A DNA stretch of 64,000 nucleotides from Azospirillum thermophilum. Its GTDB lineage: Bacteria > Pseudomonadota > Alphaproteobacteria > Azospirillales > Azospirillaceae. A model generated the notes under the pieces. The model searched no databases and was not told the DNA's origin. It was given only the letters and a program-made list of their open reading frames with translations. Below, one piece after another: positions 28,612 through 64,000 of this stretch (positions within the stretch are counted from its first letter, which is position 1; every line of letters starts with the position of its first letter). The stretch covers positions 248,001 through 312,000 of the forward strand of contig NZ_CP029356.1 in assembly GCF_003130795.1 (NCBI RefSeq), written 5' to 3'. The translations under genes were made by a program, and so were the position numbers.

Positions 28612-31230
28612 ATGAGCGAGCAGGAGCAGCGGACGAGCCGGAGCCGCACCGCAGCCGACCATCCGGCGGCACCGCGCCTTCGCCTGATCGAGGCCCGCGC
28701 GGCCCTGCTGTGGGAGCGGCTGTGGCCGGCCCTGTGGGCGCCCGCCTCGATCGCCGGCCTGTTCCTGGCCCTGGCGCTGTCCGGCCTGCTGCCCGGCCTG
28801 CCGGGCTGGCTGCATTCGGCCGTGCTGATCCTGCTGGCCGCAGCCTTCGTGCTGTCGCTCGTCTTCGGCTTCCGCCGCTTCTCGCTGCCCGGCGAGGCGG
28901 AGATCCGGCGCCGGCTGGAGCGGGACAGCGGCCTGCCGCACCGTCCGCTGCACACGCTGGCCGACCGGCCGGCCGGCGGCGACCCGGTGGCCGAGGCGCT
29001 GTGGGCGCTGCACCAGGAGCGGGTGCGCGCGGCGATGCGCCGGCTGCGCGTCGCCTTCCCGCAGTCCGACGTGCCGTCGCGCGACCGGTTCGCCCTGCGC
29101 GCGCTGGTCGTGCTGGTGCTGGTGGCGGTCGGCGGCGCCACCTGGGGCGACTGGAGGCCGCGGCTGGCCGCCGCGCTGACGCCGCATTTCGGCGTGGGGA
29201 CGGTGACGGCCGCCGCGACGCTCGACCTCTGGGTGGCGCCGCCGGAATACACCGGCCTGCCGCCGGTCTTCCTGAAGACGGGCAGCGCCGGCACCCAGGC
29301 CCCGGCGGCCGAGGGTGCCGGCGCCCAGCCGGTGCCGGTGCCCAGGGGCAGCCTCGTGCTCGCCCGCGTCACCGGCGGGCGCAGCACCCCGACGCTGGAG
29401 GCGGGGGACCGGACCGCCGCCTTCGAGGCGGTGGACGCCGCGACCTTCCAGATCCAGCAGCCGATCGAGGGCGGCACCCGGATTTCGGTCACCCAGGGCG
29501 GCGGCACCCTCGGCTCCTGGCCGGTGCGGGTGGTGCCGGACAACCCGCCGATCATCGCCCACGCCAACCCGCCCTCCAAATCGGAGCGGGCGGCGCTGAA
29601 GCTCGACTATGCGGCGCGCGACGACTACGGACTTGCCGAGGTGAAGGCGGTGATCCGCCTCGCCACCGAGGGGGCGGAAGGGACGGAGGACGGCGCCATC
29701 GCCGCCCTGCGCGACGCGCCGCCGATCGAGCTGCCGCTGTCGCTGCCCGGCGTCCGTCCGAAGGAGGCCCATGCCTCCGGCTTCCATGACCTGACGCCCC
29801 ACCCCTGGGCCGGCCTGCCGGTGACGATCCGGCTGGTCGCCACCGACGGCGCCGGCCAGACCGGCAGCTCGGAGGAAGCCGCGCTGACCCTGCCGGAGCG
29901 GGTGTTCAGCCATCCGGTCGCCCGCGCGCTGGTCGAGCAGCGCAAGCAGCTCACGCTCCGGCCGAAGGACGCGCATGTCGACGTGGCCCGCGCGCTGGCC
30001 GACATCTCGGCCCGGCCCGGCACCTATGGCGGCGACATCGTCGCCTTTCTCGCCATGCGCACCGCCATCGGGCGCCTGATGCTCGACCGCAGCGAGGAGT
30101 CGGTGCCGCCCGTCCAGCAGCTTCTGTGGGAGACGGCCCTGCGCATCGAGGACGGCGGCGTGTCGCAGGCGGAGCGCGACCTGCGCAACGCCGAGCAGCG
30201 CCTGTCCGAGGCGCTGGAGCGCAACGCGTCGGACGAGGAGCTGCGCAAGCTGATGGACGAGCTGCAGGCGGCGCTCGACGCCTTCATGCAGGCGATGGAA
30301 CAGCAGATGATGGAGGCGCTGAAGCGCGGCGAGCAGATCCCGACCATCCCGCCGGAACTGGCCGACCGCATGATGGACCGCAACGACCTGCAGCAGATGA
30401 TGGACCAGATGCGGCAGATGGCGGAGACCGGATCGCGCGACGCCGCCCGCCAGATGCTCTCGCAGCTCCAGCAGATGCTGGAGAACATGCGCAACGGCGC
30501 CATGGCCATGCAGATGCAACAGCAGCAGCAGAACGGCCAGAACCAGGCCTGGGAGATGATGCGCGAGCTGCAGGAGATGGCCCGCCAGCAGCAGCAGCTT
30601 CTCGACCAGAGCTTCCGCCAGTCGCAGGAGCAGATGCAGCGCGAGCAGAACGGCCAGCCGATGCCGCGCAGCCGCCAGGGCCGCCAGGGCCAGCAGAACC
30701 AGCAGGGCCAGGGCAGCATGCAGGGCAGCCCGACCCTGCAGAAGCAGGCCGAGCAGCAGGAGGCGCTGCGCCGCCAGCTCGGCGAGCTGATGCGCCGCAT
30801 GGGCGAGGCGACCGGCGGCGAGATCCCGCGCCCGCTCGGCCGGGCCGAACGCGCCATGCGCGACGCCGGGCAGGCCCTGCAGCAGGGCTCGCCCAGCGGC
30901 GCGGTGCCGCCGCAGACCCAGGCGATGGACGAGCTGCAGCAGGGTATGCAGGGGCTCGCCGAGCAGCTCGCCCAGCAGATGATGGGCCAGGGGCCGATGA
31001 TGATGGGCCAGCCGCAGGGCACGCAGCAGCGCCCCAGCCGCGGACGCGACCCGCTGGGCCGCCGCCCCTCCGGCTTCGGCAGCATCGACGCCAACGACGT
31101 GAAGATCCCCGAGCAGTCCGACCTGCAGCGGGCGCGGGAGATCCTCGACGAGCTGCGCCGCCGGTCCGGGCAGTATTCCCGCCCGCAGACGGAGCGCGAG
31201 TATATCGACCGGCTGCTGAAGCAGTTCTGA
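28612..31230 (+). CDS. TIGR02302/DUF4175-family membrane protein
   Basis: The 872-residue protein has two N-terminal membrane helices (about 40-60 and 65-85) and a large extracytoplasmic beta-rich region (about 190-440, with ATLDLWVAPPEYTGLPPVFL). Its C-terminal part (about 560-830) is very rich in Gln and Met, with runs such as QQQQQ, and probably forms coiled coil or disordered structure. The ending (YSRPQTEREYIDRLLKQF) is the typical TIGR02302 terminus. The family occurs across Alphaproteobacteria with unknown role. GGGAG, 8 bases before the ATG, supports the start. Confidence 0.88.
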   Translation: MSEQEQRTSRSRTAADHPAAPRLRLIEARAALLWERLWPALWAPASIAGLFLALALSGLLPGLPGWLHSAVLILLAAAFVLSLVFGFRRFSLPGEAEIRRRLERDSGLPHRPLHTLADRPAGGDPVAEALWALHQERVRAAMRRLRVAFPQSDVPSRDRFALRALVVLVLVAVGGATWGDWRPRLAAALTPHFGVGTVTAAATLDLWVAPPEYTGLPPVFLKTGSAGTQAPAAEGAGAQPVPVPRGSLVLARVTGGRSTPTLEAGDRTAAFEAVDAATFQIQQPIEGGTRISVTQGGGTLGSWPVRVVPDNPPIIAHANPPSKSERAALKLDYAARDDYGLAEVKAVIRLATEGAEGTEDGAIAALRDAPPIELPLSLPGVRPKEAHASGFHDLTPHPWAGLPVTIRLVATDGAGQTGSSEEAALTLPERVFSHPVARALVEQRKQLTLRPKDAHVDVARALADISARPGTYGGDIVAFLAMRTAIGRLMLDRSEESVPPVQQLLWETALRIEDGGVSQAERDLRNAEQRLSEALERNASDEELRKLMDELQAALDAFMQAMEQQMMEALKRGEQIPTIPPELADRMMDRNDLQQMMDQMRQMAETGSRDAARQMLSQLQQMLENMRNGAMAMQMQQQQQNGQNQAWEMMRELQEMARQQQQLLDQSFRQSQEQMQREQNGQPMPRSRQGRQGQQNQQGQGSMQGSPTLQKQAEQQEALRRQLGELMRRMGEATGGEIPRPLGRAERAMRDAGQALQQGSPSGAVPPQTQAMDELQQGMQGLAEQLAQQMMGQGPMMMGQPQGTQQRPSRGRDPLGRRPSGFGSIDANDVKIPEQSDLQRAREILDELRRRSGQYSRPQTEREYIDRLLKQF

Positions 31231-31464: not shown

Positions 31465-32919
31465 ATGCTGACGATCCTGCGGAACATCGGGCTGCTGACC
31501 CTGTCCACCGTGGTGACGACGCTGTGCGGGCTGGTGGCGACCGGCTGGCTGGCGCGGGCGCTGCAGCCGGAGCAGTTCGGCGTGATCGGGTTCGGCACGG
31601 CGCTGGTCGGCTTCTTCTCGCTGCTGGTCAATTCGGGCATCGCCACGCTGGCGATGCGCGAGATCGCGCGTGATCCCGGCTGCGTGCCGGAACTGACCGG
31701 GACGGTCGTCTCGCTGCGGCTGACGCTGTCGCTCGTCAGCTACGGGGCCTTCGCGGCGGTGCTCTTCGCGCTCGACCTGCCGGCCGACGCCCGCGCCGTC
31801 TATCTGGTGCAGGGGGTGCAGCTGATCGCGCAGGCGCTGGTGCTGGACTTCGTCTTCGCCGGCATCCAGCGGATGGGCGCCATCGCCCTGCGCCAGATCG
31901 GCACCGCCCTGCTGACGCTGGGGGCGACGGTGCTGCTGGTGCACGACAGCGGCGACACCGCCATCGCCGCGGGCATCACCGCCGGGTCGGCGGCGGTCAA
32001 CGCCCTGTGGATCTGGATCGGCTATGTCGCCCTGTTCCGCCGGATGACCTTCCGCTTCTCCGTCCGCCGCTGGTGGGACCTGCTGGCGCAGTCCGCCCCG
32101 ATCTCCATCGGCGGCTTCGTCTGGATGGCCTATCACAGCACCGGCGTGCTGGTCCTGGGGCTGATGCGGCCGGCGGCCGAGGTCGGGCTCTACAGCGCTG
32201 CCTACAAGGTGGTGACGCTGGTGGTCATGCTGGCCCACGTCATCCGCAACGCCTTCCTGCCGCCGCTCGCCAACGTGTATGGCGACCGGCCGGCGATGCA
32301 GGCGGGGGTGCGGCGCTTCGTGGTCACCATGGCGGCCATCGCCGTGCCGGTGACGGTCGGCGGCATGGCCCTGGCGCCGGAGATCCTGGCGGTGCTGTTC
32401 GGCCCGGCCTTCGAAGGCGCGCGGGAACCGATGCGCATCATGATGGCCGGCGTGCCGCTGCTGTTCCTGGTGATCGTGCTGGGCGACCCGCTGCTGGTCT
32501 GGCACCGGCAGAGGCCGTACATGATGGTGATGCTGGTCTGCGGCATCGCCAACGCGGCGCTGTGCTTCGCGCTGACCCCCTTCCTCGGCGCTCTGGGAGC
32601 GGCGACGGCGAGCGTCACGACGGCCGCCCTGATGCTGGTCGGCATCGCCGGCAACCATATCCGCACCGTCGGCCTGCTGCCGGCCCGGCCGCTGCGGCAG
32701 GCGGGCCTGAGCGTGCTGCTGACCTTCGCCGCCTATGCGCTGTTCGCCCTGGGCGCCGCGGACTTCACCGGCCACCTCGTCCCGGTCGCGGCCTTCCTGG
32801 TGAAGGGTTGCGTCATCGTGGCGCTGTGCGGGCTGGCGATGATGGTCACCGGGCTGCTGCCGGTGGTCCGGATGGCCGGCGCCTGGCGCCGCTCCGCCGG
32901 GCAGCAGGCGCGGGCCTGA
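31465..32919 (+). CDS. Wzx/MATE-like polysaccharide flippase
   Basis: The 484-residue protein has about twelve to fourteen membrane helices and the start LRNIGLLTLSTVVTTLCGLVATGWLARAL.P.QFG typical of the polysaccharide synthase/Wzx (MVF) superfamily, which flips lipid-linked sugar units across the inner membrane. It is separated by 20 kb from the EPS region and has no glycosyltransferase neighbours, so its glycan is unknown. A small hairpin, AGCCGGC-atcgc-GCCGGCT, lies in the 234-bp gap upstream (31258-31276). Confidence 0.85.
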   Translation: MLTILRNIGLLTLSTVVTTLCGLVATGWLARALQPEQFGVIGFGTALVGFFSLLVNSGIATLAMREIARDPGCVPELTGTVVSLRLTLSLVSYGAFAAVLFALDLPADARAVYLVQGVQLIAQALVLDFVFAGIQRMGAIALRQIGTALLTLGATVLLVHDSGDTAIAAGITAGSAAVNALWIWIGYVALFRRMTFRFSVRRWWDLLAQSAPISIGGFVWMAYHSTGVLVLGLMRPAAEVGLYSAAYKVVTLVVMLAHVIRNAFLPPLANVYGDRPAMQAGVRRFVVTMAAIAVPVTVGGMALAPEILAVLFGPAFEGAREPMRIMMAGVPLLFLVIVLGDPLLVWHRQRPYMMVMLVCGIANAALCFALTPFLGALGAATASVTTAALMLVGIAGNHIRTVGLLPARPLRQAGLSVLLTFAAYALFALGAADFTGHLVPVAAFLVKGCVIVALCGLAMMVTGLLPVVRMAGAWRRSAGQQARA

Positions 32920-36229: not shown

Positions 36230-37720
36230 ATGGCGGGAAGCACCTTTACCGGGACCGGCAAGACGGTGGTCGTGATCGACAGCGGCTGGGGCTCGGCGTG
36301 GGACAAGGGGAAGATGGTCTACCAGTACGACTTCGGCGAGCGCGACGGCGACGCGCGCAGCTCGAACCCCAATGCCCACGGCGCACGGGTGACCGCCACG
36401 GTCCTGAAGAGCGCGCCCGACGTCAACGTCATCGAGCTGAAGGTGACGGACGCCAACGGGTCGGCCGACACCGCCACCATCGAAAGGGCGCTGCAGTGGG
36501 TGGTGAAGAACGTCGACGCCTATGACATCGCCTCGGTGAACCTGTCGATGGTGTCCGGCGCGGCGTCGAGCCACACCAGCTCCGCCCTGTCGGACGAGTT
36601 CGCGGCGCTGGCCGCCAAGAACGTCGTCACCGCCGTGGCGGCCGGCAACGCCGGCTACAACGCCGCCCGCAGCGTGTCGGTCTATGCGGCCGATCCGAAC
36701 GTGGTGTGCGTCTCCGCCTCCGACGGCGACGGCGGGTTCCCGAGCTGGTCGCAGCGCAACTCCAAGGTCACCGACCTCTGCGCCGACGGCGTGATGGTGC
36801 CGATCAAGAACCTGGCCGGCCAGACGCTGAGCTACGGCGGCTCCTCCTTCTCCGCCCCGCAGGTCGCGGCGGCCGCGGCGCTGGTGCAGCAGGCGTCGGA
36901 GAAGCTGTACGGCAAGAGCCTGACGGTGCGCGAGTTCGTCGACCTCGCCCGCTCGACCGGCAAGGTGCTGAGCAGCAGCGACGGCTTCATCGAGCTGAAC
37001 ACCGACGCCATGCTGGCCAAGCTCGCCAAGGGCGCGCCGCAGGGTCCCCAGGTGCCGGCCCCGTCGCAACCGTCGACCGACCTGACCTCCATCGTGATCA
37101 AGGCGCACGGCTCGGCGGCGGGCGGCGTCAACCCGCACTTCAACCTGCTGGTGGACGGCAGGAAGATCGGCGAAGGCTGGGCCGGGGCGACGAAGGACTT
37201 CACCTTCAAGACCAAGCTGGCCGCCGATCAGGCCCACAAGATCCAGATCCAGTACGACAACGACGGCGTGGCGAACGGCCAGGACCGCAACCTGCACATC
37301 GACAAGATCACGATCAACGGCCACGCCATCGCCCCGACCGATTCCATGGTGCGCTACGACAAGGGTGCGCTGGACGGCCGCGACGTCGCCGCCGGCCAGT
37401 CGACCATGGCCTGGAAGGGCACGCTGGTGGTGAATGCCGGCAAGGGCTACTTCCCGGGCACCACCGCCAAGGTCGCCGAGGCGGACGACCGCCAGGACGC
37501 CGGGGACGCCGGCCACGACGCGGCGCTGGCCGACTGGACCTATGCCGCCACCGCCGCCCATGCGGCGAGCGACGCGGCCCGCTCGGCCGGCGCCGACCAC
37601 GCCGGTTATGCGACGGCCGAGTATGCGACGGCGCATGAGGCCGCCGGCCACGACTGGCACGACGGCCCGGCCGGCCACGGGCAGCACCTGCTGCACGGCG
37701 CCGACGCGCTGGCCGCCTGA
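36230..37720 (+). CDS. Leaderless S8 subtilisin-like peptidase with CBM60-like module and Ala/His-rich tail
   Basis: The 496-residue protein starts almost directly with the subtilase core. Asp17 (VVVIDSG), His50 (NAHG), Asn140 (AAGN) and Ser206 (GSSFSAP) make a full catalytic set. There is no signal peptide and no propeptide. Residues about 322-445 form a carbohydrate-binding module of the CBM60 (xylan-binding) pattern, nearly the same as the second module of the GH5 enzyme at 57.2 kb (shared blocks NGQDRNL and YDKGALDGRD). The tail (about 455-496) is rich in Ala, His and Asp and ends LLHGADALAA. It is probably secreted by a signal-peptide-independent route, perhaps acting on EPS-associated proteins. 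The ATG at 36230 has GAGGA upstream. Confidence 0.82.
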   Translation: MAGSTFTGTGKTVVVIDSGWGSAWDKGKMVYQYDFGERDGDARSSNPNAHGARVTATVLKSAPDVNVIELKVTDANGSADTATIERALQWVVKNVDAYDIASVNLSMVSGAASSHTSSALSDEFAALAAKNVVTAVAAGNAGYNAARSVSVYAADPNVVCVSASDGDGGFPSWSQRNSKVTDLCADGVMVPIKNLAGQTLSYGGSSFSAPQVAAAAALVQQASEKLYGKSLTVREFVDLARSTGKVLSSSDGFIELNTDAMLAKLAKGAPQGPQVPAPSQPSTDLTSIVIKAHGSAAGGVNPHFNLLVDGRKIGEGWAGATKDFTFKTKLAADQAHKIQIQYDNDGVANGQDRNLHIDKITINGHAIAPTDSMVRYDKGALDGRDVAAGQSTMAWKGTLVVNAGKGYFPGTTAKVAEADDRQDAGDAGHDAALADWTYAATAAHAASDAARSAGADHAGYATAEYATAHEAAGHDWHDGPAGHGQHLLHGADALAA

Positions 37721-38395: not shown

Positions 38396-38590
38396 ATGAA
38401 CGACCTGCCCCACCGGCAGACGTGGCGCTGCCGCGTTGCCGAACTGCTTCAGGACCCGATCGCCCAGGCGCTGCTGCGCCGCGACCGGCTGACCGACGCC
38501 GCGGTGCTGGCCCAGCTTTCGCCCATCGCCGACCATCTGCGCGGCGCCGGGTCCCTCAGAGCTTCAGCCCCGCAACACCATCCAGATTGA
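38396..38590 (+). CDS. Possible small protein
   Basis: The frame encodes 64 residues (MNDLPHRQTWRCRVAELLQDPIAQALLRRDRL...), whose middle forms a credible amphipathic helix. The last dozen residues overlap the convergent pentapeptide gene and look unnatural, so the gene may be truncated or the frame may be chance. No function can be named. Confidence 0.4.
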   Translation: MNDLPHRQTWRCRVAELLQDPIAQALLRRDRLTDAAVLAQLSPIADHLRGAGSLRASAPQHHPD

Positions 38591-39851
38591 CGCCGTCCAG
38601 CAGGGCGCGGCGCTCCACCTTGGCGCCGAACAGCTTGGCGCCGCTGAGGTCCGCCTTGCCGAGGTCGCAGCCGATCAGGGTGGCGAAGGAGAGGTCGGCC
38701 CCCGACAGGTTCGCGGTGCGCAGGCAGGCCCCCGACAGGTCGGCATAGCGCAGCCGCGCGCCGGACAGGTCCGCGCAGCGCGACCGCTGCTCGTCGAACA
38801 CCAGCGAGCGGAGGTTGACGTTGCGCAGGTCGGCGTTGTTCAGCTTCGCCCGCTTCAGGTTCACGCCGCGCAGGTCGCCGCCGGCCAGCGTCGCCCCGCG
38901 GAAATCGGCGTTGTCCAGGGTCGCCGCCTGCAACTGCACCCCCGACAGGTCGAGCCCGTAGAAGGTCCCGCCCGACGCCCGCAGCATGGTGAGGCAGGCA
39001 TGGGCCAGCGACGGCGCATGGCGCAGGTCGAAACCCGAGAGATCGAGCGCCGTGCCCTGCGCCCCGCCCGACCCCACCCAGGCCATGTGGTCGTGCAGCA
39101 GATCCTCCAGCGACCGGCCGAGTTCGGCGATCACCCGGCCGACCGGCTTGTCGGTCAACGCCTCGCTGGTGTCGGCGTCGGTGAGGTCGGTCATGACCAT
39201 CGAGGTGCCGGTCAGCACCGCCCCGCGCAGGCAGGCGCCCCGCAGGTCGGCGCCCGACAGGTCCGCCCCCTCCAGGTTCGACCCGCTGAAGTTGGCGCCG
39301 CGCATGGTGGCGCGCACCAGCTTGCATCCCTTCATCACCGCGTCGGTGAAGTCGGTGTGGATCGCCATGGCGCCGGACAGCCGCGCGTTGGTCAGGTTGG
39401 CGCCGGAAAGGTCGGCGCCCGACGCCTCCGACGGGCGGGACTCGATCTGCAGCAGGCGGAGGTTGCCGTCGCGGTCCTTCTCGGCCAGCGAGCCGTCGCG
39501 CAGGTCGGCCTCGAACAGGTTGGCGCCGACGAGGACGGCGCCGCGCAGGCAGGCGCCGCGCAGGTCGGTCTTGATCAGGCTGGCGCCCTCCAGGTTCGCC
39601 TGGCGCAGATCGGCGGCGAACAGGGCGGCGCAGTCGAGCTTCGCCCCCGACAGGTTGGCGCCGCGCAGCACCGCCCCGGTGAAATCGGCATGGGCGAGGT
39701 CGCGGTGCGACAGGTCGAGGTGCGACAGGTCGTGGAAGGACAGGATCGCCCGCGCCCCGCCGATGCGGGCGTTGCGGAACATCTCGTGCCGGCGCACCGC
39801 CTGGTCGAGCTGCATCTGGTCGAGACGGATCATGGGTCGTTGCTGGGTCAT
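38556..39851 (-). CDS. Pentapeptide-repeat protein
   Basis: The 431-residue protein consists largely of pentapeptide repeats of the A(D/N)LXX type (ADLSGANL, ADLRGACL and so on) in three blocks, about residues 45-130, 145-235 and 290-425. Linkers at about 130-145 and 235-290 separate them. It should fold as right-handed quadrilateral beta-helices. No signal peptide or membrane helix is seen. Such proteins range from gyrase-protecting DNA mimics to uncharacterised scaffolds, and nothing here identifies the role. The ATG at 39851 was chosen over a TTG nine codons earlier. Confidence 0.88.
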   Translation of the reverse strand: MTQQRPMIRLDQMQLDQAVRRHEMFRNARIGGARAILSFHDLSHLDLSHRDLAHADFTGAVLRGANLSGAKLDCAALFAADLRQANLEGASLIKTDLRGACLRGAVLVGANLFEADLRDGSLAEKDRDGNLRLLQIESRPSEASGADLSGANLTNARLSGAMAIHTDFTDAVMKGCKLVRATMRGANFSGSNLEGADLSGADLRGACLRGAVLTGTSMVMTDLTDADTSEALTDKPVGRVIAELGRSLEDLLHDHMAWVGSGGAQGTALDLSGFDLRHAPSLAHACLTMLRASGGTFYGLDLSGVQLQAATLDNADFRGATLAGGDLRGVNLKRAKLNNADLRNVNLRSLVFDEQRSRCADLSGARLRYADLSGACLRTANLSGADLSFATLIGCDLGKADLSGAKLFGAKVERRALLDGVNLDGVAGLKL

Positions 39852-39926
39852 GGCGCGCCGAACCTGGTCGTTGCGCAACTGTCGCGCGCCGCCGCTTCAG
39901 ATTTGGTTAAAATGTCACGCGGTCGG

Positions 39927-52344: not shown

Positions 52345-54711
52345 GTGGAAAACCTTCCCCAGATCAACCGTGGCGGTCCACCGGCCCACGCCCAGACCCA
52401 GGTTCCGGGCTGGCCGGCCGTTCCCGGTCCCACGCCGCGCGCCGATTACGAGGGGCAGGCCCCGGCGATGGGCCCTGACTTCCGTTTCATCCTGCGCGTG
52501 CTCGCCGCGCACAAGCTCCTGATCGCCGTCATCGTCGTGGCGCTGACGGCGACGGCGGCGTTCGGCGTGTCGCTGCTGAAGGACCAGTACAGCTCCGAAG
52601 CGCTCCTGCTGGTGGACAACCGGCAGGTCCGGGTGGTGCGGCCGGAAGACCAGATGCTGGGCTCCATCCCCGCCGAGGATTCCTCCATCCTCAGCGAGAT
52701 CGAGATCCTGAAGTCCACCGCCGTGCTGTCCCGCGCGGTGGAGGACCTGAAGCTGACCGGCAATCCCGACTTCAACCCGCCGGCCCAGCCGGCGCCGGCC
52801 GAGGCGAACCAGCCCTTCGCGGCGCGCGCCACCGCCTATCTGCGGGACCATGCCCGGCAGATCTGGGGCGAGGACCTGCCCGGCCCGGTCGCCGCCCTGC
52901 TCGACCACGGCGACGGCATGGCGCGCGACGCCGTCCAGCGCGAGGCCTACGCCTCCACCGGCATCGACGGCATCCTCGACCGCATCCGGCGCAAACTGGA
53001 CGTCGCCATCGTCGGCCGGTCGCGGGTGATCCAGGTGCGCTTCACCGACAAGGATCCGGAGATGGCGCGCGACATGGTCGACACCATCGTCCGCCGCTAC
53101 ATGGAAACCCGCCAGCAGATGGACCGCGACCTGTCGACCAGCGCGGTGGAATGGCTGAAGGACCGCATCGACGCCCTGCGCAGGGAGGTCGCCGAGGCCG
53201 ACCGCAAGGTCGACGAGACCCGCTTCCGCGCCGGGCTGGTCAAGGGCGGCAACAACGGGCTGATGGCGACCGGCGAGCTGGAGCAGGCCCGCCTGCGGCT
53301 GGCCGAGGCGTCGGCCAACCGCGCCCGCGCCGTCGCCCAGGCCGAGGCGCTGGAGCGCGGCGCCCGGTCCAGCGGCAGCAGCATCGCCTCGCCGGTGGTG
53401 GCCCAGCTCCGCGCCACCGTCGCGGCGATCTCCACCGAGATGGCGCAGCTTTCCCGCCAGTACGGCCCCAAGCACCCGCGCATCATCGAGCTGCAGGCCC
53501 GGCTGAACGAGGCCAACTCCGCACTCGCCAGCGAGACGCGGCGCGAGATCGACGGCGTGCGCGAGGCGGCCAACGTCGCCATCGCCCAGGAGAACGCGCT
53601 GAAGGCGATGATCGCCCGGCTGGAGAGCAGCTACCAGACCATGACCGAGGAGGCGGTGCCGCTGCGCACGCTGGAGGCCGAGGCCCAGGCCAAGCGCCAG
53701 CTCCTCGACAGCCTGCTCGGCCGTCTGGAGGAGGTGCAGGCCCAGCAGGACAACCGCGCCTTCCCGACGGCGGTCAAGCTGGTCTCCGCCCCGCAGGTGC
53801 CGCGCAGCCCGTCGGGCCCGTTCCGCGCGCTGCTGCTGCTCGCCGGCTTCGTGGCGTCCTTCGCGGTGGCGATCTTCACGGTGTTCGGCGTCGAGCTGCT
53901 GCAGCGCCGCATCCGCACCCCGGACGCCGTGCGCCGCATCCTGGGCGTCGCCGGCGTGCACATCCTGCCGCACCATTCGACCCGCGGCGTCCACGGCCGG
54001 CTCTACGAGCTGTTCCAGCGCCATCCCTTCTCGCTGTTCAGCGAGTCCCTGCGCGCCCTGTTCCGCAACCATCTGGCCGATCTCGGCCCGGTCGGCTCGA
54101 TCGCGGTGACCTCGGCCCGGCCGCAGGACGGCAAGACCTCGCTGAGCCTCGCCGTCGCCCAGGTGGCGAGCCAGGCGGGCCGCCGGGTGGTGGTGGTCGA
54201 CACCGACTTCCGCCGGTCGCGGATCGACGGGCTGTTCAACCTGTCGGCCAAGCGCGGCCTGTCGGACTGGATCGCCGGCGAGGCGGCCCTGGACGAGATC
54301 GTCCACAGCGCCGACGACGTGCCGTTCGACGTGGTGCCGGCCGGCCGGCTGATGTCGGAGACGCTGGACCGCTTCAACGTCGACTGCCTCGTCCATCTGA
54401 TGGCCGGCCTGTCGCCGCGCTACGACCTGGTGGTGTTCGACACCGCCCCGGCGCTGGCCGTGTCGGACGCCCGCATCGTCTGCGCCGCCGCCTCCAGGGT
54501 GCTGTTCGTCACCCGCTGGGGCCACACCACGGCGAGCGACCTGCAGGCGGTCGCCGACCTCGGCCCGATCGACCACGAGAAGTTCGTGTGCGTGATGACC
54601 GACGTGAACCTGAAGAAGGCGGCCTCGCGCGGCTACCAGGGGCCCTACAGCAGCTATGTCGCCACCCGGAAATACTACGGCGGCAACCGTACGCTGCGGG
54701 CGACCTCGTGA
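52345..54711 (+). CDS. Polysaccharide co-polymerase/bacterial tyrosine kinase (Wzc-like)
   Basis: The 788-residue protein has membrane helices at about 57-78 and 495-517, a Wzz domain and long coiled coil between them, and a cytoplasmic BY-kinase domain. Walker A is ARPQDGKTS (about 590-600; the usual PGEGK is altered), Walker A' VVVVDTDFRRSR and Walker B LVVFDTAP. The C-terminal GYQGPYSSYVATRKYYGG gives a tyrosine cluster for autophosphorylation. It sets chain length of EPS with a polymerase. It starts at a GTG with AGGAG upstream, and its stop overlaps the GH10 gene start as GTGA. Confidence 0.92.
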   Translation: MENLPQINRGGPPAHAQTQVPGWPAVPGPTPRADYEGQAPAMGPDFRFILRVLAAHKLLIAVIVVALTATAAFGVSLLKDQYSSEALLLVDNRQVRVVRPEDQMLGSIPAEDSSILSEIEILKSTAVLSRAVEDLKLTGNPDFNPPAQPAPAEANQPFAARATAYLRDHARQIWGEDLPGPVAALLDHGDGMARDAVQREAYASTGIDGILDRIRRKLDVAIVGRSRVIQVRFTDKDPEMARDMVDTIVRRYMETRQQMDRDLSTSAVEWLKDRIDALRREVAEADRKVDETRFRAGLVKGGNNGLMATGELEQARLRLAEASANRARAVAQAEALERGARSSGSSIASPVVAQLRATVAAISTEMAQLSRQYGPKHPRIIELQARLNEANSALASETRREIDGVREAANVAIAQENALKAMIARLESSYQTMTEEAVPLRTLEAEAQAKRQLLDSLLGRLEEVQAQQDNRAFPTAVKLVSAPQVPRSPSGPFRALLLLAGFVASFAVAIFTVFGVELLQRRIRTPDAVRRILGVAGVHILPHHSTRGVHGRLYELFQRHPFSLFSESLRALFRNHLADLGPVGSIAVTSARPQDGKTSLSLAVAQVASQAGRRVVVVDTDFRRSRIDGLFNLSAKRGLSDWIAGEAALDEIVHSADDVPFDVVPAGRLMSETLDRFNVDCLVHLMAGLSPRYDLVVFDTAPALAVSDARIVCAAASRVLFVTRWGHTTASDLQAVADLGPIDHEKFVCVMTDVNLKKAASRGYQGPYSSYVATRKYYGGNRTLRATS

Positions 54712-55937: not shown

Positions 55938-56088
55938 CCCCGTCCACGACGCTACCACGTCCGATCGCCCTGGCCGGCCAGCCTTCCGCACCGGTGCGGC
56001 GACGCGGGGAATGCCTAGAGTCTGGAAGCGTGCCGCCATGCTGATCGAGGCCGCGCTGATTGGGCCATGCTGATTGGAGAGGTCGATC

Positions 56089-57012
56089 GTGAAAAGCCTT
56101 ACCGCCGACGAACTGGTCGCACGCTACCGCCGGAAGTTCCATCTGGCGCCCGGCTACCCGCTGAACGAGAGCATGGTGCAGCAGCACTGGGAGTTGGAGC
56201 GCCGGCTGGCGCGCGAGCTTCTCGACTCCCGCAAGGAGGAGCGCTGGGACGTGTTCGAGCGCTGCTACACCGCCCTCTACAGCGCCTGCCCCTGGCTGAA
56301 CGAGGCCGAGCAGGACGCGTCCGAGCGCAACGAGGACCTGGATTTCCGCCACTTCCTCGACCTGCTGGGCGGACCGAAGGAGGTCTACGAGGTCGGCTCG
56401 GGCAAGGCGCGGCTGCTGACCTACCTCGCCCGCCACGGCTACAAATGCGTCGCCACCGAGGTGACGCGGGAGCGCGGCGAGCGCTGGACCGACGAGCGCA
56501 CCAACATCACCTGGCGCTGCTGCGACGGCGTCAACCTCGCCCGGTTCGAGCCGCGCGACCATTACGGCGCGGTGGTCTCCACCCACGTCATCGAGCATTT
56601 CCATCCCGACGACGTGCCGACCCACCTGGAGAACGTTTACGCCATCCTGAAGCCGGGCGGCCGCTACGTCTTCGCCATGCCGCACAAGCTCGCCGGGCCG
56701 GCCGACCTGTCGGAGGTCTTCGGGCTGGAGGAGCCGGTGTGCATGCACCTGCGCGAGTACGACTACCGCGAGATCTCCGCCATGCTGAAGGCGGCCGGCT
56801 TCACCGGTCTGGAGGCGGCCTACGTCGCCCCGATGGCCCTGCGGCGCTATCTGCCGATCCGCTTCTCCGGCCGCGGCTACCTCGCCTACGTAACCGCGGT
56901 GGAGACATTTTTGGGATCGCTTCCGTTAACCATGCGTCGCAAGCTTTCCAAGCTCGGCCAGCTTTACCTGTTCCGCCCCGAGCTGTTCATGATCGCGCAC
57001 AAGCCAGGCTGA
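56089..57012 (+). CDS. SAM-dependent methyltransferase (class I)
   Basis: The 307-residue protein has a class I methyltransferase core: motif I VYEVGSGKARLLTYLA (about 100-115), motif II CVATEVT, and VVSTHVIEHFHPDDVPTHLENVYAILKPGGRYVF, the usual post-motif region. No signal peptide is seen. Its place among EPS genes suggests O-methylation of a sugar or of the polymer end, though that is inference from context. It starts at the GTG at 56089, which has GGAGAGG upstream; a TTG five codons earlier is less likely. Confidence 0.85.
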   Translation: MKSLTADELVARYRRKFHLAPGYPLNESMVQQHWELERRLARELLDSRKEERWDVFERCYTALYSACPWLNEAEQDASERNEDLDFRHFLDLLGGPKEVYEVGSGKARLLTYLARHGYKCVATEVTRERGERWTDERTNITWRCCDGVNLARFEPRDHYGAVVSTHVIEHFHPDDVPTHLENVYAILKPGGRYVFAMPHKLAGPADLSEVFGLEEPVCMHLREYDYREISAMLKAAGFTGLEAAYVAPMALRRYLPIRFSGRGYLAYVTAVETFLGSLPLTMRRKLSKLGQLYLFRPELFMIAHKPG

Positions 57013-57233: not shown

Positions 57234-59768
57234 ATGGCAACGAACCCCGTCGACACGACTTTCGTCGTTAATGCCTCGGGTCTGGCTGCCGGAGGAGTCT
57301 GGCCGCATTTCAAACTGCTTGTCGACGGCACGGTCGTCGGTCAGGCCACGGTCAATTCCACCAACGCCGGTCGCTACACCTTCAAGACGAAGGTCGCCCC
57401 CGACGCCGCTCATAAGATCCAAATCGTTTACGACAACGACTGGCTGTCGACCGACAAGGCGGGCATGTACCGCGACCTGCTGGTCAAGTCGATCGAGGTC
57501 AACGGCAAGACCATCGCTTCCAACAGCTCCGTCGTCAGCTACGACGCGGACGGCCAGGGCGTCCTGTCCGGCCGCGAGCAGCTCTCCTGGGGCGGGTCCC
57601 TGGACTTCGCCCTGACGAAGAGCTACTTCCCGGCTCCGTCGGGCTCCGGCTCGACCCCCGTCCCGACCACCCCGCCCGCCGGGTCCACCGCCATCGTGGT
57701 GAACGCCAGCGGCACCGTCGCCGGCGGCAGCAACGCGCACTTCAAGGTTCTGGTCGACGGCAAGGTGATCGGCGAGGCCACGGCCGCCACCAGCTCGAAG
57801 GACTTCACCTTCCACGCCAACGTCGCCCAGGATCAGGCCCACAAGGTCCAGATCCAGTTCGACAACGACGCGACGATCAACGGCCAGGACCGCAACCTGA
57901 CGGTCAACAAGATCACCATCGGCGGCCATTCGGTGCTGCCGACCGACGGCATCGTCAGCTACGACAAGGGCGCGCTGGACGGCCGCGACGTCGTCGCCGG
58001 CAAGGCCACGATGAACTGGAACGGCACGCTGGTCGTCAACGCCGACAAGTCCTTCTTCTCGCACGACACCAGCCCGACGCCGACCAACCCGCCGGCCACC
58101 ACCCCGAAGATCTCGGTCAACGACGTGACGGTCACCGAGCCCAAGGCCGGCGGCGGCGGCGCCTCGGGCATCGTCGGCTTCCTCCACACCGAGGGCAACC
58201 AGATCGTCGACGCGGCCGGCAACAACGTCCGCCTGAACGGCGTCAACTGGTTCGGCGGCGAGGGCTACAACTACGTGCCGACCGGTCTGTGGGCCGACAG
58301 CTACCAGGGCCACATCAACAAGATGAAGGACATCGGCTTCAACGTCATCCGCCTGACCTACGCCGATGAGATGTTCGAGAGCAGCGCCGTCACCAACGGC
58401 ATCGATTATTCCAAGAACCCCGATCTGCAGGGCCTGACCCGCCTGCAGGTCTATGACAAGATCATCGACTATGCCGGCAAGGTCGGGATGAAGGTGATCC
58501 TTGATCACCACCGCAACGACGGCGGCGCCGGCACCAACGAGCACGGCCTGTGGTACTCGCAGAAGTACCCGGAATCGAAGATGATCGAGAACTGGAAGAT
58601 GCTGGCGAAGCACTATGCCGGCAACACCACGGTCATCGGCGCCGACCTGCACAACGAGCCCAGCGTCTCCGCCACCTGGGGCGGCAACCCCGCCACCGAC
58701 TGGGCGGCGGCGGCCGAGCGCATCGGCAACGCCATCCAGACGGTCAACAAGGACTGGCTGATGTTCGTCGAGGGCACGGAGTGGAGCAGCACGCTGGCCG
58801 GCGTGAAGAACAACCCGGTCGAGTTCAACGTCCCGAACAAGCTGGTCTACTCCCCGCACGTCTACGGCCAGAGCGTCTACAACTTCCCGTGGCTGCAGGA
58901 TCCCAGCTATCCGAAGAACCTGCCGGCGCAGTATGACGGGATGTGGGGCTACATCTACAAGAACAACATCGCTCCGGTCCTGATCGGCGAGTTCGGCGGC
59001 AAGTTCGAGACCGCGGCCGAACGCACCTGGGTCAACGCGCTGATGAAGTACACCAACGGCGACTGGAACCTGGACGGCAAGGCCGACATCGCCGCCGGCG
59101 ACAAGGGGATGAGCTGGACCTACTGGGCCTGGACGCCGGAATCGCACGATGTCGGCGGCCTGCTGAACAGCGATTTCAAGACCGTCAACCAGGCCAAGGT
59201 CGACCTGATCAAGACCGGCATGGCCGGCGTCACCCACGGCACCGGCAGCGGCGGCACGGCCACCACCAACGCGGTGTTCACCGTGAAGCTGTCGGGCGCC
59301 TCGGACAAGCCGGTGACGGTCGAGTACAACACCGTCGACGGCACGGCCAAGGCCGGGTCCGACTATGTCGCCACCAGCGGCAAGCTGACCTTCGCCGCCG
59401 GCGAGACGGTCAAGACGGTCGCCGTGAAGGTGCTGAGCGACAGCATCAGCGAGGGCACCGAGACCTTCAGCCTGAAGCTGGCCAACGCCACCTCGGCCAG
59501 CATCTCGGACGCCAGCGGCACCGGCACGATCCAGCAGGGGTCGAGCGCCTCGACCGCCGAGCTGGCCCACACCGCCGAGCTGAACGAGTGGACGAACGCC
59601 GTCACCAGCCAGCAGCACGCCGCCACCACCGCCACCACCGCCACGGCGGCGGAACTGGCCTCGGCGGGCAGCGCCGCCCAGGACGCGGGCGCCTATGCCC
59701 ACGCCAACGATGCGGCGGCCACCGCCGACCACGTCTACCACGACCCGTCGCTGCTGCACGCCGCCTGA
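57234..59768 (+). CDS. Modular GH5 cellulase-type enzyme with two CBM60-like modules, Calx-beta and Ala/His-rich tail
   Basis: The 844-residue protein has no signal peptide. Domains: CBM60-like 1 (about 6-136), CBM60-like 2 (about 157-285), a first Calx-beta strand (ISVNDVTVTEP, about 293), GH5 barrel (about 315-660) with acid/base Glu475 (LHNEPS) and nucleophile Glu586 (IGEFGG), the rest of the Calx-beta domain (about 675-768, SDYVATSGKLTFAAGE), and an Ala/Thr/His-rich tail ending DPSLLHAA. The GH5 unit thus sits inside the Calx-beta domain. It probably cleaves a beta-1,4-glucan or the EPS itself, outside the cell. Calx-beta and lack of leader fit type I-like export. AGAGG lies 9 bases before the ATG. 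A possible -10 is TAAAAT at 57159-57164. Confidence 0.88.
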   Translation: MATNPVDTTFVVNASGLAAGGVWPHFKLLVDGTVVGQATVNSTNAGRYTFKTKVAPDAAHKIQIVYDNDWLSTDKAGMYRDLLVKSIEVNGKTIASNSSVVSYDADGQGVLSGREQLSWGGSLDFALTKSYFPAPSGSGSTPVPTTPPAGSTAIVVNASGTVAGGSNAHFKVLVDGKVIGEATAATSSKDFTFHANVAQDQAHKVQIQFDNDATINGQDRNLTVNKITIGGHSVLPTDGIVSYDKGALDGRDVVAGKATMNWNGTLVVNADKSFFSHDTSPTPTNPPATTPKISVNDVTVTEPKAGGGGASGIVGFLHTEGNQIVDAAGNNVRLNGVNWFGGEGYNYVPTGLWADSYQGHINKMKDIGFNVIRLTYADEMFESSAVTNGIDYSKNPDLQGLTRLQVYDKIIDYAGKVGMKVILDHHRNDGGAGTNEHGLWYSQKYPESKMIENWKMLAKHYAGNTTVIGADLHNEPSVSATWGGNPATDWAAAAERIGNAIQTVNKDWLMFVEGTEWSSTLAGVKNNPVEFNVPNKLVYSPHVYGQSVYNFPWLQDPSYPKNLPAQYDGMWGYIYKNNIAPVLIGEFGGKFETAAERTWVNALMKYTNGDWNLDGKADIAAGDKGMSWTYWAWTPESHDVGGLLNSDFKTVNQAKVDLIKTGMAGVTHGTGSGGTATTNAVFTVKLSGASDKPVTVEYNTVDGTAKAGSDYVATSGKLTFAAGETVKTVAVKVLSDSISEGTETFSLKLANATSASISDASGTGTIQQGSSASTAELAHTAELNEWTNAVTSQQHAATTATTATAAELASAGSAAQDAGAYAHANDAAATADHVYHDPSLLHAA

Positions 59769-59871: not shown

Positions 59872-60546
59872 TCAGCCCGGCCCGGCGGACAGGCCGGCAA
59901 CCGGCGGGCCGGGCTCCTCGCCCCGGACGGCGGACAGGCCGCTGCCGGCGAGTGGCGCCGGGTTCGGGATGTCGGGGATCGCCACCTCCCCCACCACCTT
60001 GCCGGGGTTGCCGGTGACCAGCGACCGCCGCGGCACCGGCCGGGTGACGACGGACAGGGCACCGACGATGCTCTCGTCGCCGATCTCCGCGGCGCCGATG
60101 ATCACCGCGTTCGGCCCCACCCAGACCCCGTCGCCGAGCACCGGATAATGCGTGACCCGGCCGGCCGGGGTGATGTCGTCCTTCTGGCCGATGGTGACCC
60201 CGTGGAACAGCGTGACGTTGGCGCCGATGCGGGCGCTGCCGTTCACCACCAGCCCCCATCCGTGCAGGATGCGGAGCCCCGGCCCGACGGAGGTCTCCCA
60301 CGGCAGGTCCATGCCCGCCGCCTGCTGCGTCCAGCGGTGAAGCAGGCGGCTGGCCATGAGGGCGGGACCGCGCAGGACCGCCGGCAGAGCCGCCGCCGCC
60401 TGGCAGAGCCGCAGCGTGAAGACCGGCCGGAACAGCCGGTTGCCGGCCAGCAGCCTCACCACCGGGCCGAGGCCGGAACGCCCGCAATAACGGACGCAGT
60501 CGGCGCCGACCTTGCGGGTGAAGGAGAGGGTCGAATGGTCCTGCAT
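59872..60546 (-). CDS. Serine-acetyltransferase-like hexapeptide O-acetyltransferase
   Basis: The 224-residue protein has a helical N-terminus (about 1-75) and a left-handed beta-helix of hexapeptide repeats (about 80-190) with GLRILHGWGLVVNG..ARIGANVTLFHGVTIGQK and VWVGPNAVIIGAAEIGD, the CysE/EpsH-like pattern. In an EPS region it more likely acetylates a sugar than serine. The last 25 residues are Gly/Pro-rich and not conserved. The ATG at 60546 is preceded by GAGGA. It is transcribed with the flippase gene upstream. Confidence 0.85.
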   Translation of the reverse strand: MQDHSTLSFTRKVGADCVRYCGRSGLGPVVRLLAGNRLFRPVFTLRLCQAAAALPAVLRGPALMASRLLHRWTQQAAGMDLPWETSVGPGLRILHGWGLVVNGSARIGANVTLFHGVTIGQKDDITPAGRVTHYPVLGDGVWVGPNAVIIGAAEIGDESIVGALSVVTRPVPRRSLVTGNPGKVVGEVAIPDIPNPAPLAGSGLSAVRGEEPGPPVAGLSAGPG

Positions 60547-60599: not shown

Positions 60600-62081
60600 T
60601 CAGGCGGCCGGCTGCGGCCGGCGCAGCACCCGCCCCACCATGCGGAACAGGATCGCCCGGTCGGTCCGGCTGAAGCCCGGCCCGAAGACGGCGGCGATGG
60701 CGGCCAGCATGGTCAGGCCGACCTTGGCGGCGACATAGGCGGGGTCGACGGCGTGGCCGAACAGCTCCAGGCTGACGGCATAGGCGATCGCCGCCGGGAC
60801 CAGCACGCCCAGGACCTGCCCCGGATGCAGCGGCAGCTCCTGCGGGCAGAGGCGGCGGCAGACCAGCTCCGTCGCCACCAGCATGAACAGCTCCCGCCCG
60901 ACGACGCCGATGGCCGCCCCCAGCACGCCGAGCGGGCCGATCAGCAGGGCGGCCAGCGCGGTGCCGACGGCGATGCCGCCCAGCGAGATCAGCGGCAGCA
61001 CGCCGACCCGCTTGGTCTTGACCAGCGCCACCTCCGGATGCATCCGCACGCCGTGGAGCGTGTAGGTCAGCACCAGCAGCGGCATGCAGGCGAGCACCGG
61101 CGCATAGTCCGGCGAGGCGATCAGCCACAGGATCTCCGGCGAGATCAGCGCCATGCCCAGCGCCGCCGCCGTCAGCAGGACGATGAAGAAGTAGAAGACG
61201 AATTCCGCCTGGTCGCGGTCGGCGGCGCGGTGCTGCGCCTCGATCCGCGCGACCGACCAGATCTGCAGGAAGGAGGCGGTGAGGAACATGTAGAGCAGCG
61301 TCGCCAGCCGCATGCCGAAGGACAGCACGCCGACCGCCGCGATGCCCATCAGGATGTTCAGCAGATAGCGCAGGACGAACTGGTTGCCGATGTCCAGCAG
61401 CGTCTGCGGCATGAAGGGCAGACCCAGCATCCCCACCCGCTTCAGGATGCCGAAGGAGAAGGACACCCCGTTGGCGGCGAGGATCGCGACGGTCAGCAGA
61501 ACGCCCAGCGCCACGAAGGTGATGCCGTTCGCCAGGAAGATGCCGGCCACCCCCCAGTCCAGCCACCAGACGAACAGCAGGTTCAGCACCAGCAGCCCGC
61601 CGGCCTTGCCGATGGAGATCATCAGGCAGGTGCCGGACCGCCTGTGGACCCGGTAATAGGCGAGCGCCAGCTCGAACACCGTGCTGAAGGCGATGCTGGC
61701 GAAGGCGACGGCCACCACCGCCGCTTCGCCGCCGTTGCCGAACAGCGCCTCGCTGATGCCCAGCCCGACCGGCCAGGCCAGCGCCAGCAGCCCGAGCGTC
61801 GCGCTCCACAGCCCGATCATGGTGGTGCCGACCACGCGGCGGCGGCCGGCCTCGTCCGGATGTTCGAAATAGACGACGGTGAAGGCGTTGATCATTCCGA
61901 TCATCAGCATCACCGCCAGGATGTCGCCGACCACGCTGATCAGCGAATAGACGCCGAACTGCGCCGGCGACAGGACCTTGGTGTAGAGCGGCAGCAGCAA
62001 GAGCCCGGCAGCCCGGTTGACCACGTTGGCGACCATGAAGAGCCACCCGTGCTTGATGATTTGCTCAGCTTCCGAAGCCAT
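60600..62081 (-). CDS. Wzx-type EPS flippase
   Basis: The 493-residue protein has about fourteen membrane helices in the polysaccharide-flippase (MVF) fold, beginning HGWLFMVANVVNRAAGLLLLPLYTKVLSPAQFGVY, a standard Wzx start. It should flip undecaprenyl-linked EPS repeat units to the periplasm. It is divergent from the priming transferase and followed by the acetyltransferase on the same strand (53 bp gap). It is distinct from the flippase at 31.5 kb; the two show only the general family pattern in common. Confidence 0.88.
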   Translation of the reverse strand: MASEAEQIIKHGWLFMVANVVNRAAGLLLLPLYTKVLSPAQFGVYSLISVVGDILAVMLMIGMINAFTVVYFEHPDEAGRRRVVGTTMIGLWSATLGLLALAWPVGLGISEALFGNGGEAAVVAVAFASIAFSTVFELALAYYRVHRRSGTCLMISIGKAGGLLVLNLLFVWWLDWGVAGIFLANGITFVALGVLLTVAILAANGVSFSFGILKRVGMLGLPFMPQTLLDIGNQFVLRYLLNILMGIAAVGVLSFGMRLATLLYMFLTASFLQIWSVARIEAQHRAADRDQAEFVFYFFIVLLTAAALGMALISPEILWLIASPDYAPVLACMPLLVLTYTLHGVRMHPEVALVKTKRVGVLPLISLGGIAVGTALAALLIGPLGVLGAAIGVVGRELFMLVATELVCRRLCPQELPLHPGQVLGVLVPAAIAYAVSLELFGHAVDPAYVAAKVGLTMLAAIAAVFGPGFSRTDRAILFRMVGRVLRRPQPAA

Positions 62082-62838: not shown

Positions 62839-64000
62839 ATGAGCGACCATCCTCGTGATGATCATGGGATGGCTGGCATTCCCTTCGAACGCATGGGACC
62901 TGCGATGAGCAAACTCGACCCAGAGGTGGTCATCGATATGACCCCGGCCAAGAAAGCGGCTATTCCGCCGCTGGCGCCGGGGTTGCTGCTGGCGCTGTCC
63001 GACGGTTTCGTGCTTGCCCTGGTCGGATGGGTGCTCAGCCACATCCTGGTCCAGGACCCGGCTGACATCGAAGCCGAACTGGGCCAACGGTCACTGGTGA
63101 CCGGCCTGATGCTGGTACCACTCGTTAAGTCTGTTTTTGGAATTTATTCACTCGGCCGCTTCGACTATTTGGAAAGGACCCGGCGGACGTTCCAGGCGGC
63201 GATGCTGTGCTGCGCCGTGCTGGCGGTCCCCTTCATCGTGCTGGACGGGTTCCGGCCCTTCTTCATGGAAGCCCTGTCGGTGGCGCTGATCGGCTTCGCC
63301 GCCACCTATGCCGCCGACCTGATCCTGGTGCACGGGCTGATGGCCAGCGCGCTGCAGTGGCGCACGCCGGTGGTCATCGTCGGGGCGGGGCCCCAGGGCG
63401 CCGCCATCGCCGCCAAGCTGCAGCGCCTGCCCTGGCTCGGCATGCGTCCGGTCGGCTTCTTCGACGACGACGCGGACCTCTGGCAGACGAGGATCGAAGG
63501 CCTGCCCGTCTTCGGCCCGGTCGAGCTGCTCGCCAAGTCGCCCGCCTTCGCCCAGCAGGCGCAGGCCGCCATCGTCGCCGACATCGGCCGTCAGGCGGGC
63601 CGCCAGGGCGTCGAACTGACCTAGCTGGTGCGCGCGCTGCCCTTCAAGCAGGTCTACTGCGTGCTCGGCGAGGGCAATGTCAGCGCCGTCGACGCGACCT
63701 TCCACAATCTGCACGGCTCGCTGGCTCTGCGGGTCAGCGTCCGGCCGCCCACCGGCTACCTGCGCATCCGCCGGGCGCTGGACGTGCTGCTGTCGCTGCT
63801 TCTGCTGGTGATGGTGGCGCCGCTGATGCTGCTGATCGCCGTGCTGATCAAGCTGGACAGCCCGGGTCCCGTGCTGTTCCGCCAGCAGCGCTGGGCCGGC
63901 GGCGCGGCGACCTTCGACCTGCTGAAGTTCCGCTCCATGCACATCAACGCGGAGGAGCACCTGCAGCGGCTGCTGGAGAGCGATCCGAAGCTGCGCGAAG
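62839..64000 (+). pseudogene. EPS priming sugar-phosphate transferase (WbaP/WcaJ-like), interrupted by in-frame TAG; cut by window edge
   Basis: The frame encodes N-terminal membrane helices (about residues 42-160), a nucleotide-binding CoA-like domain (VVIVGAGPQGAAIAAKL, about 175-250), and stops at TAG (63622-63624). The very same frame continues with LVRALPFKQVYC, a membrane helix, and the hallmark DSPGPVLFRQQRWAGG and FDLLKFRSM of bacterial sugar transferases, running off the window. A single GAG-to-TAG change would explain it. The intact enzyme transfers a sugar-phosphate to undecaprenyl phosphate, the first step of EPS synthesis. Either the gene is disabled, the two halves are made separately, or the base is wrong. 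Confidence 0.85.

Follow-up and report, generated by a model that had tools for sequence, protein, structure and literature searches.

The window (the whole stretch of 64,000 nucleotides analysed here) is part of a 6.78 Mb genome of nine contigs, in which it is placed at G000:C5:248001-312000. It encodes two leaderless enzymes, a subtilase and a GH5 enzyme, and both open reading frames are present where the initial annotation had put them. Their layout is as follows.

36230..37720, plus strand: S8 subtilase with a CBM60 module and a C-terminal tail, leaderless, 496 residues
36308..36922, plus strand: Peptidase_S8 domain match (Pfam), residues 65-269 of the 36116 open reading frame
37091..37345, plus strand: CBM60 match in the subtilase (Pfam); the module continues to about 37459
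37460..37717, plus strand: subtilase tail, 86 residues, after the CBM60 module
37532..37561, plus strand: core motif of the subtilase tail, DWTYAATAAH, starting 62 residues from the end
57234..59768, plus strand: CBM60-CBM60-GH5-Calx-beta-tail protein, leaderless, 844 residues
57258..57533, plus strand: CBM60 module 1 of the GH5 protein (genome search, G000:C5:305258-305533)
57693..57941, plus strand: CBM60 module 2 of the GH5 protein, close to the subtilase module
58206..59141, plus strand: GH5 (Cellulase) catalytic domain (Pfam)
59265..59492, plus strand: Calx-beta domain directly before the GH5 tail (Pfam)
59541..59765, plus strand: GH5 tail, 75 residues
59583..59612, plus strand: core motif of the GH5 tail, NEWTNAVTSQ
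59556-59633, plus strand: match of profile A1 in the GH5 tail (E 3.5e-4)

In the Pfam search, the Peptidase_S8 domain of the subtilase scored 53 bits (cut-off 21.8) and its single CBM60 module 57.7 bits (cut-off 28.2). Residues D17, H50 and S206, which we take by eye and from recall to be the catalytic Asp, His and Ser, are invariant in an alignment of 39 sequences. A prodomain was not seen in the subtilase (36230..37720). The GH5 protein gave 151 bits for Cellulase and 78.1 bits for Calx-beta, with two CBM60 stretches and a CBM60 (PF16841) score of 101.2 bits, above the Pfam cut-off of 28.2. The model for RTX nonapeptide repeats (HemolysinCabind) matched neither protein in Pfam, and a search of a defence library found nothing. 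Elsewhere in the window, a DUF4175 protein (28276-31230) is followed by a polysaccharide flippase (Polysacc_synt, 31465-32919), and these genes lie upstream of an FtsE/FtsX-like pair and the subtilase. A long pentapeptide-repeat protein (38556-39878, minus strand, 250 bits) lies downstream of the subtilase.

Both proteins had been described as starting without a leader, and this description held. The maximum of the 12-residue Kyte-Doolittle mean, with the upstream frame included, was 1.27 in the subtilase and 1.36 in the GH5 protein, on a scale that is a rough test for leaders, since a leader-bearing control (an M23 protein at locus L165) scored only 1.82 from its listed start. The possibility that leaders would appear on corrected starts did not materialise, as the upstream extensions showed none. 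Among the 96 search hits (P0001-P0096), none exceeded 2.0 in its first 40 residues.

The subtilase CBM60 module is 62.9% identical to module 2 of the GH5 protein over 124 residues and 45.7% identical to module 1, and the two GH5 modules are 43.0% identical to each other. The claim that the modules of the two proteins are far closer than the two within the GH5 protein is thus correct for module 2, but not for module 1. No match to the subtilase module was found among solved structures. The window genome contains 11 CBM60 modules above the cut-off in six proteins, namely the subtilase, the GH5 protein and four beta-helix proteins. The four beta-helix proteins are leaderless (by eye) and have no tail. 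One of them ends in RTX-like repeats, which scored 28.1 bits in the genome search and 21.7 bits in the protein scan (cut-off 23). Two of these beta-helix proteins, including the one with terminal RTX-like repeats, lie at C8:94000-104500 (locus L016), on the same contig as an HlyB-like exporter (C8:21561-23798).

The GH5 gene is surrounded by genes for the synthesis of exopolysaccharide (EPS).

52345..54711, plus strand: Wzz chain-length determinant with an AAA domain, near the GH5 gene in most relatives
56074..57012, plus strand: methyltransferase, which stays next to the GH5 gene in relatives
59872..60546, minus strand: hexapeptide acyltransferase, conserved in some relatives
60600..62081, minus strand: putative Wzx-type flippase, named by eye (Polysacc_synt_3, E 3.1e-4, below the Pfam cut-off)
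62839..63624, plus strand: CoA_binding_3 protein
from 63628: Bac_transf sugar transferase, after the CoA_binding_3 protein

Past the window end, a Wzy_C protein and a glycosyltransferase continue the EPS cluster. We read the GH5 loci of relatives at 24 places (25 less one duplicate). An EPS neighbourhood was found in 21 of them, all with the Wzz gene, the methyltransferase gene or both upstream. The flippase, sugar transferase and Wzy genes lay downstream of the GH5 gene in 19 of these 21; they were not seen in L122, and the stretch available for L074 stops before this region. By eye, the tail is present on the GH5 proteins of all 21 EPS neighbourhoods and on two of the other three, L157 being the one where it was not seen. 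Given this conserved synteny, the GH5 enzyme probably acts on the EPS of the cell itself, by analogy with the Ply glycanases of Rhizobium. The initial annotation had suggested a common glycan, possibly the cell's own EPS. As a target, EPS is favoured for the GH5 enzyme by its gene neighbourhood, but not for the subtilase, which shows no such link, and binding of one shared glycan by both would be conjecture.

Another target should be considered for these enzymes. The main substrate could be a plant cell wall polysaccharide rather than the cell's own EPS. Azospirilla are root bacteria, Pfam describes CBM60 as xylan-binding, and GH5 is a cellulase family. The GH5 gene, however, stays among EPS synthesis genes in 21 relatives, and we consider a plant wall target somewhat unlikely.

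The initial annotation had reported related low-complexity tails on the two proteins, beginning with a W-T-x-A-x-T pattern. This was borne out, and the pattern proved to be a local form of a genus-wide core. In a pairwise alignment (BLASTP), the two window tails matched over only 17 residues (41%, E 0.008). The case would thus be weak on these two tails alone, and it is carried by the genus-wide set. The core of this set is approximately [VL]-[YWL]-x-H-x-V-[AT], followed by an Ala/Asp/His-rich stretch nearly free of Lys and Arg. A search with the subtilase gave 110 proteins. In 68 of them the tail was cut after the last CBM60 module, giving 57-91 residues, and Lys and Arg make up 0.6% of these tails versus 5.1% of the rest of the same proteins.

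For further analysis, 73 non-redundant tails were taken from a set of 143, the tail being defined as the sequence after the last CBM60 or Calx-beta domain. The core with its His was present in 80.8% of the 73 tails versus 12.3% (maximum 23.3%) in 500 composition shuffles; the pattern was picked on the same proteins as were counted, and the weight lies on the contrast with the shuffles and on the fixed position. The core starts at a median of 52 residues from the C-terminus (interquartile range 50-54, n = 59). After the core, the sequence is hardly conserved. Lys and Arg together account for 0.8% of the residues in the 73 tails, His for 7.7% and Ala for 24.9%, and 45 of the tails end in AA. The window tails are divergent members of the set, in which the core His is replaced by Tyr or Asn (DWTYAAT and EWTNAVT) and the core starts farther out than is typical, at 62 residues from the end in the subtilase and 60 in the GH5 protein. 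No Pfam or NCBIfam model matched the tails of the two enzymes, no hydrophobic helix was seen in the tails by eye, and no description of the tail was found in the non-subscription literature searched.

The initial annotation had proposed a profile search for the tail, and such a search showed that the tail is not limited to the two window proteins. A core profile of 26 positions, built from 33 rows, gave matches with E <= 1 in 39 of the 45 genomes of the genus, many of the weak matches being antisense frames. The genus search gave 106 rows, of which 94 were classified and 12 weak rows (E above 0.4) were left out. The classified rows comprised 61 true C-terminal tails and 33 other matches, mostly antisense frames, and all 26 rows with E < 0.001 were true tails. 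One tail without CBM60 (L227) was entered among the true tails after reading, against the automatic rule. At least 35 of the 45 genomes thus have a tail, 34 by the classified rows and one (G033) by reading of the locus. Nine of the ten genomes without a found tail keep HlyB-like exporters. In the window genome itself, the core search gave one confident match (the GH5 protein) and three weak ones (E 0.8-1.6), two of which were chance matches on reading. It missed the subtilase tail, although this is one of the 33 rows of the profile.

Outside the genus, the tail was confirmed in none of 37 genomes of other genera in a search of 82 genomes of the family (E <= 0.01). The sole match there, in G070, was judged by eye to be an antisense shadow; its frame lacks CBM60 and ends 127 residues further on. 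It is worth noting that this search was less sensitive, recovering 25 of the 45 Azospirillum genomes versus at least 35 with a tail, so that weak tails elsewhere in the family could be missed. A search with a profile of CBM60 plus tail confirmed 165 places, from which 80 named loci were kept. These are labelled Azospirillum or 'Roseomonas genomospecies 6'; the latter is taken to be a misnamed Azospirillum. The closest relatives found with the subtilase bear Azospirillum names.

The tail is carried by subtilases, GH5 proteins with Calx-beta, CAP proteins, and pectate-lyase-like and other beta-helix proteins. Two GH16 proteins (P0061 and P0062) carry it with a deviating core, and in an enzyme of unknown kind (P0087) RTX repeats are followed by CBM60 and then by the tail. 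Eight GH5 proteins (L227 and P0230-P0236) have the tail without CBM60 or Calx-beta. In the seven near relatives of L227 among them, some of which bear the names A. brasilense and A. agricola, the core lies 52-55 residues before the C-terminus. The decisive case is L227, in which the GH5 domain bears nothing but the tail; the tail is therefore a module of its own. Both window proteins combine the tail with CBM60, but the CBM60-free GH5 proteins show that the tail is independent of CBM60, which the initial annotation had not foreseen. That the tail is a shared C-terminal module on unrelated enzymes is well supported.

The tail is also exchanged for other elements. RTX repeats replace CBM60 and tail in the subtilases P0078 (a partial record) and P0080, whose identity to the window subtilase is 50% and 49% across roughly half the length of the latter. 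The GH5 domain that occurs leaderless with the tail is also found leaderless with RTX repeats (P0241, P0257, P0259 and P0306), and in four further proteins (P0285, P0290, P0292 and P0293) its N-terminus is hydrophobic and a C-terminal module is lacking. In the P0087 family, a hydrophobic N-terminus was found in all eight enzyme-only relatives (2.27-2.93) and in none of 12 proteins with C-terminal RTX or CBM60 (1.55 or less); these 20 were picked by hand from the top of 120, with P0123 (an acyltransferase fusion) omitted, and P0114 looks truncated at its start. Such swaps would be expected if the tail and the RTX ends serve a like route and replace a Sec leader.

On the other hand, some leaderless CBM60 proteins lack both the tail and RTX repeats. 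They comprise three of the window genome's four beta-helix proteins, two further classes of beta-helix proteins, and at least 12 CBM60-GH5 proteins (P0057, P0077, P0081, P0239, P0246-P0252 and P0254) that stop right after the catalytic domain in forms like PALFDGTIA. The tail is therefore not the sole companion of a missing leader, which counts against its reading as a signal. Where beta-helix proteins carry CBM60 near the N-terminus, they share a different conserved end of the form GFDHLPFDQIGLL(G) (loci L102, L104, L112, L128, L132-L134, L136, L139-L141, L143-L145, L148, L151 and L160), possibly a second C-terminal signal. A third CBM60 class (L109, L117, L118, L120, L127, L129 and L130) ends in TNNTISS.SKANP, without the tail. 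Leaderless beta-helix, subtilase and GH5 proteins also show recurrent repeats of the form HY-x3-G-x-x-EGR towards their ends, either alongside RTX or instead of it (L165:13061-15781, L182:729-3335, P0080 and P0240).

The exporter was sought in the neighbourhood of the tail genes. Within flanks of up to 10 kb, the 80 named CBM60 loci gave matches to ATPase domains but no full-length type I secretion gene. An added locus (L075), which has an HlyD gene beside the subtilase gene, led to a second group of genomes. In further subtilase loci of this group, a pair of ABC and HlyD genes adjoins the subtilase gene. The linked ABC protein (locus L166) passes the cut-off of the HlyB model TIGR01846 (979.9 versus 725.55 bits), and its partner passes that of the HlyD model TIGR01843 (401.7 versus 208.65 bits). 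By eye, the C39-like domain of the ABC protein has no cysteine where one is expected.

Of the 45 genomes, 17 encode a relative with at least 80% identity to this ABC protein. In 14 of these, the contig that bears the pair also encodes a tailed subtilase, no more than about 1.3 kb away in 12 genomes and at 5.8 kb in G031 and G035; the 14 adjacencies represent a single inherited arrangement, not independent events. Wherever the genes of a locus were listed, subtilase gene and pair converge. In G012 (L184 and L168, G012:C21) pair and subtilase are 11.6 kb apart, separated by what look by eye like transposase, recombinase and arsenic-type genes. In G030 the ABC gene is at one contig end and the HlyD and subtilase genes are at the start of another contig, and in G032 exporter and subtilase are on different contigs. 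The subtilase beside the exporter shares only about 51% identity with that of the window. Several exporter loci also hold a leaderless beta-helix protein, and in L165 and L184 (the latter by eye) a DUF4347-RTX protein and the end of an RTX protein are present as well. These neighbouring RTX proteins could be the real substrates of the exporter.

The initial annotation had proposed a type I-like exporter and a check for a nearby operon. Such an operon lies beside the subtilase in 14 of the 17 genomes, and the HlyB/HlyD adjacency in this one group and the swaps with RTX and Sec leaders favour the proposal; no such operon was found in the window or in the 80 named loci, and the tail genes of the window genome showed no exporter gene next to them. 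The best relative of the linked exporter in the window genome is only 37% identical to it and lies on C8. It is HlyB-like, at 589 bits.

It is conceivable that the exporter is this C8 protein or a PrtD-type system, and that the adjacency of the HlyB operon in one group is due to chance. The window genome has two PrtD proteins above the cut-off, relatives of the C8 exporter (50% identity or more) are present in 43 of the 45 genomes, the comparable enzymes of Rhizobium are exported through PrsDE, and type I genes were not found around the tail genes of the 80 named loci. For one PrtD protein of the two, however, relatives were found in only 15 of the 45 genomes (at E 1e-170), versus tails in at least 35, and the score of the C8 protein is below the HlyB cut-off of 725.55 bits. 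We regard this alternative as unlikely.

The anatomy of the tail, its fixed core, its portability, the swaps and the adjoining exporter, all read from the sequences, together point to a C-terminal type I secretion signal. The tail is conserved, with the length and place expected for such a signal, and a role in export is predicted for it. RTX proteins carry an uncleaved C-terminal type I signal of about 60 residues (PMC3034196), and the match in length and place counts for the signal reading. Against it count the nine genomes that keep HlyB-like exporters although no tail was found in them and the lack of the core His in the window tails. On balance, we think it probable that the tail is an RTX-independent C-terminal type I secretion signal on EPS-remodelling and other surface enzymes, and the best reading is that the tail as such is an undescribed signal.

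The tail might instead be a flexible His-rich anchor to the surface or matrix, or a linker, with export depending on something else. Its low complexity and its content of His and Ala would suit such a role, as would the poor conservation after the core and the existence of leaderless CBM60 proteins without a tail. An anchor or linker would not account for the fixed position of the core, or for a tail on GH5 proteins that have no other module and whose relatives have RTX repeats or a Sec leader in its place; moreover, no leader remains to account for export. This explanation seems to us quite improbable. That the proteins are cytoplasmic and the tail a drift artefact of GC-rich Ala codons is scarcely credible, since, in spite of the GC-rich genome and the poor alignment of the window tails with each other, the core is found in 81% of tails versus 12% of shuffles and at a fixed place, the proteins have Ca-dependent sugar-binding modules and RTX relatives, and the tail occurs in at least 35 of 45 genomes.

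The type I signal reading can be compared with known systems. As in HlyB/HlyD (RTX) secretion, there is a C-terminal stretch of about 60 residues and no leader, and exporter genes adjoin in one group; unlike the RTX substrates, most tailed proteins lack RTX repeats, and the tail has a core of its own. A closer analogy may be drawn with Rhizobium leguminosarum, in which the substrates of PrsDE include glycanases without a leader, a beta-helix protein and lectins that bind Ca, and these act on the EPS of the bacterium itself (PMC2275737, PMC9298526). The Azospirillum set likewise has leaderless glycanases and a beta-helix protein, Ca-dependent modules, and the cell's own EPS as proposed target. 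It differs in having CBM60 or Calx-beta, and a subtilase. No cadherin-like Pfam match was found in the window proteins (E <= 1) or in 10 relatives (E <= 0.001). PrsD is a PrtD-type protein, whereas the linked Azospirillum exporter is of the HlyB type. The tail set may thus work like the PrsDE/Ply/Rap set, to which it is likened by analogy and not as a member. PEP-CTERM and GlyGly-CTERM are short C-terminal sorting tails on many unrelated exoproteins, and they require an N-terminal Sec leader and a hydrophobic helix. The Azospirillum tail is also short, C-terminal and found on unrelated proteins, but the tailed proteins have no leader, and no hydrophobic helix was seen by eye.

On the basis of the type I signal reading, the following mechanism can be proposed. 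The tail would serve as an export signal some 60 residues long that stays uncleaved and is recognised by an HlyB/HlyD-type type I system, with the core about 52 residues from the end and the remainder a flexible stretch poor in Lys and Arg. The leaderless enzymes would leave the cytoplasm and reach the exterior in a single step. There, the Ca-dependent modules, CBM60 or Calx-beta, would fold and hold the enzymes on polysaccharide. For the GH5 enzyme this polysaccharide is probably the EPS made by the surrounding genes, and the enzyme would cut or remodel it. The subtilase, leaving the cell by the same route, would act as a protease bound to the matrix. Recognition of the tail by the exporter, secretion, the bound glycan and the role outside are what we infer here. 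CBM60 or Calx-beta before the tail may take the role of RTX, folding on meeting external calcium, and the proteins made up of GH5 and tail would indicate that a Ca-binding module is not always required.

In a wider sense, the tail could be a new, genus-specific and RTX-independent class of signal, mobile among enzymes (even onto a bare GH5 domain), which marks a dedicated toolkit for remodelling of the cell's own EPS and in several enzyme families has taken the place of RTX modules and Sec leaders; for this broader proposal we see close to an even chance, and it is put forward tentatively. Type I signals without RTX repeats are hard to spot. A portable, RTX-free tail with a recognisable core would allow a direct test of what an HlyB-type exporter reads, and would give an inventory of exported proteins for a plant-growth bacterium. 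The tailed enzymes would also open the question of how such bacteria trim their own EPS.
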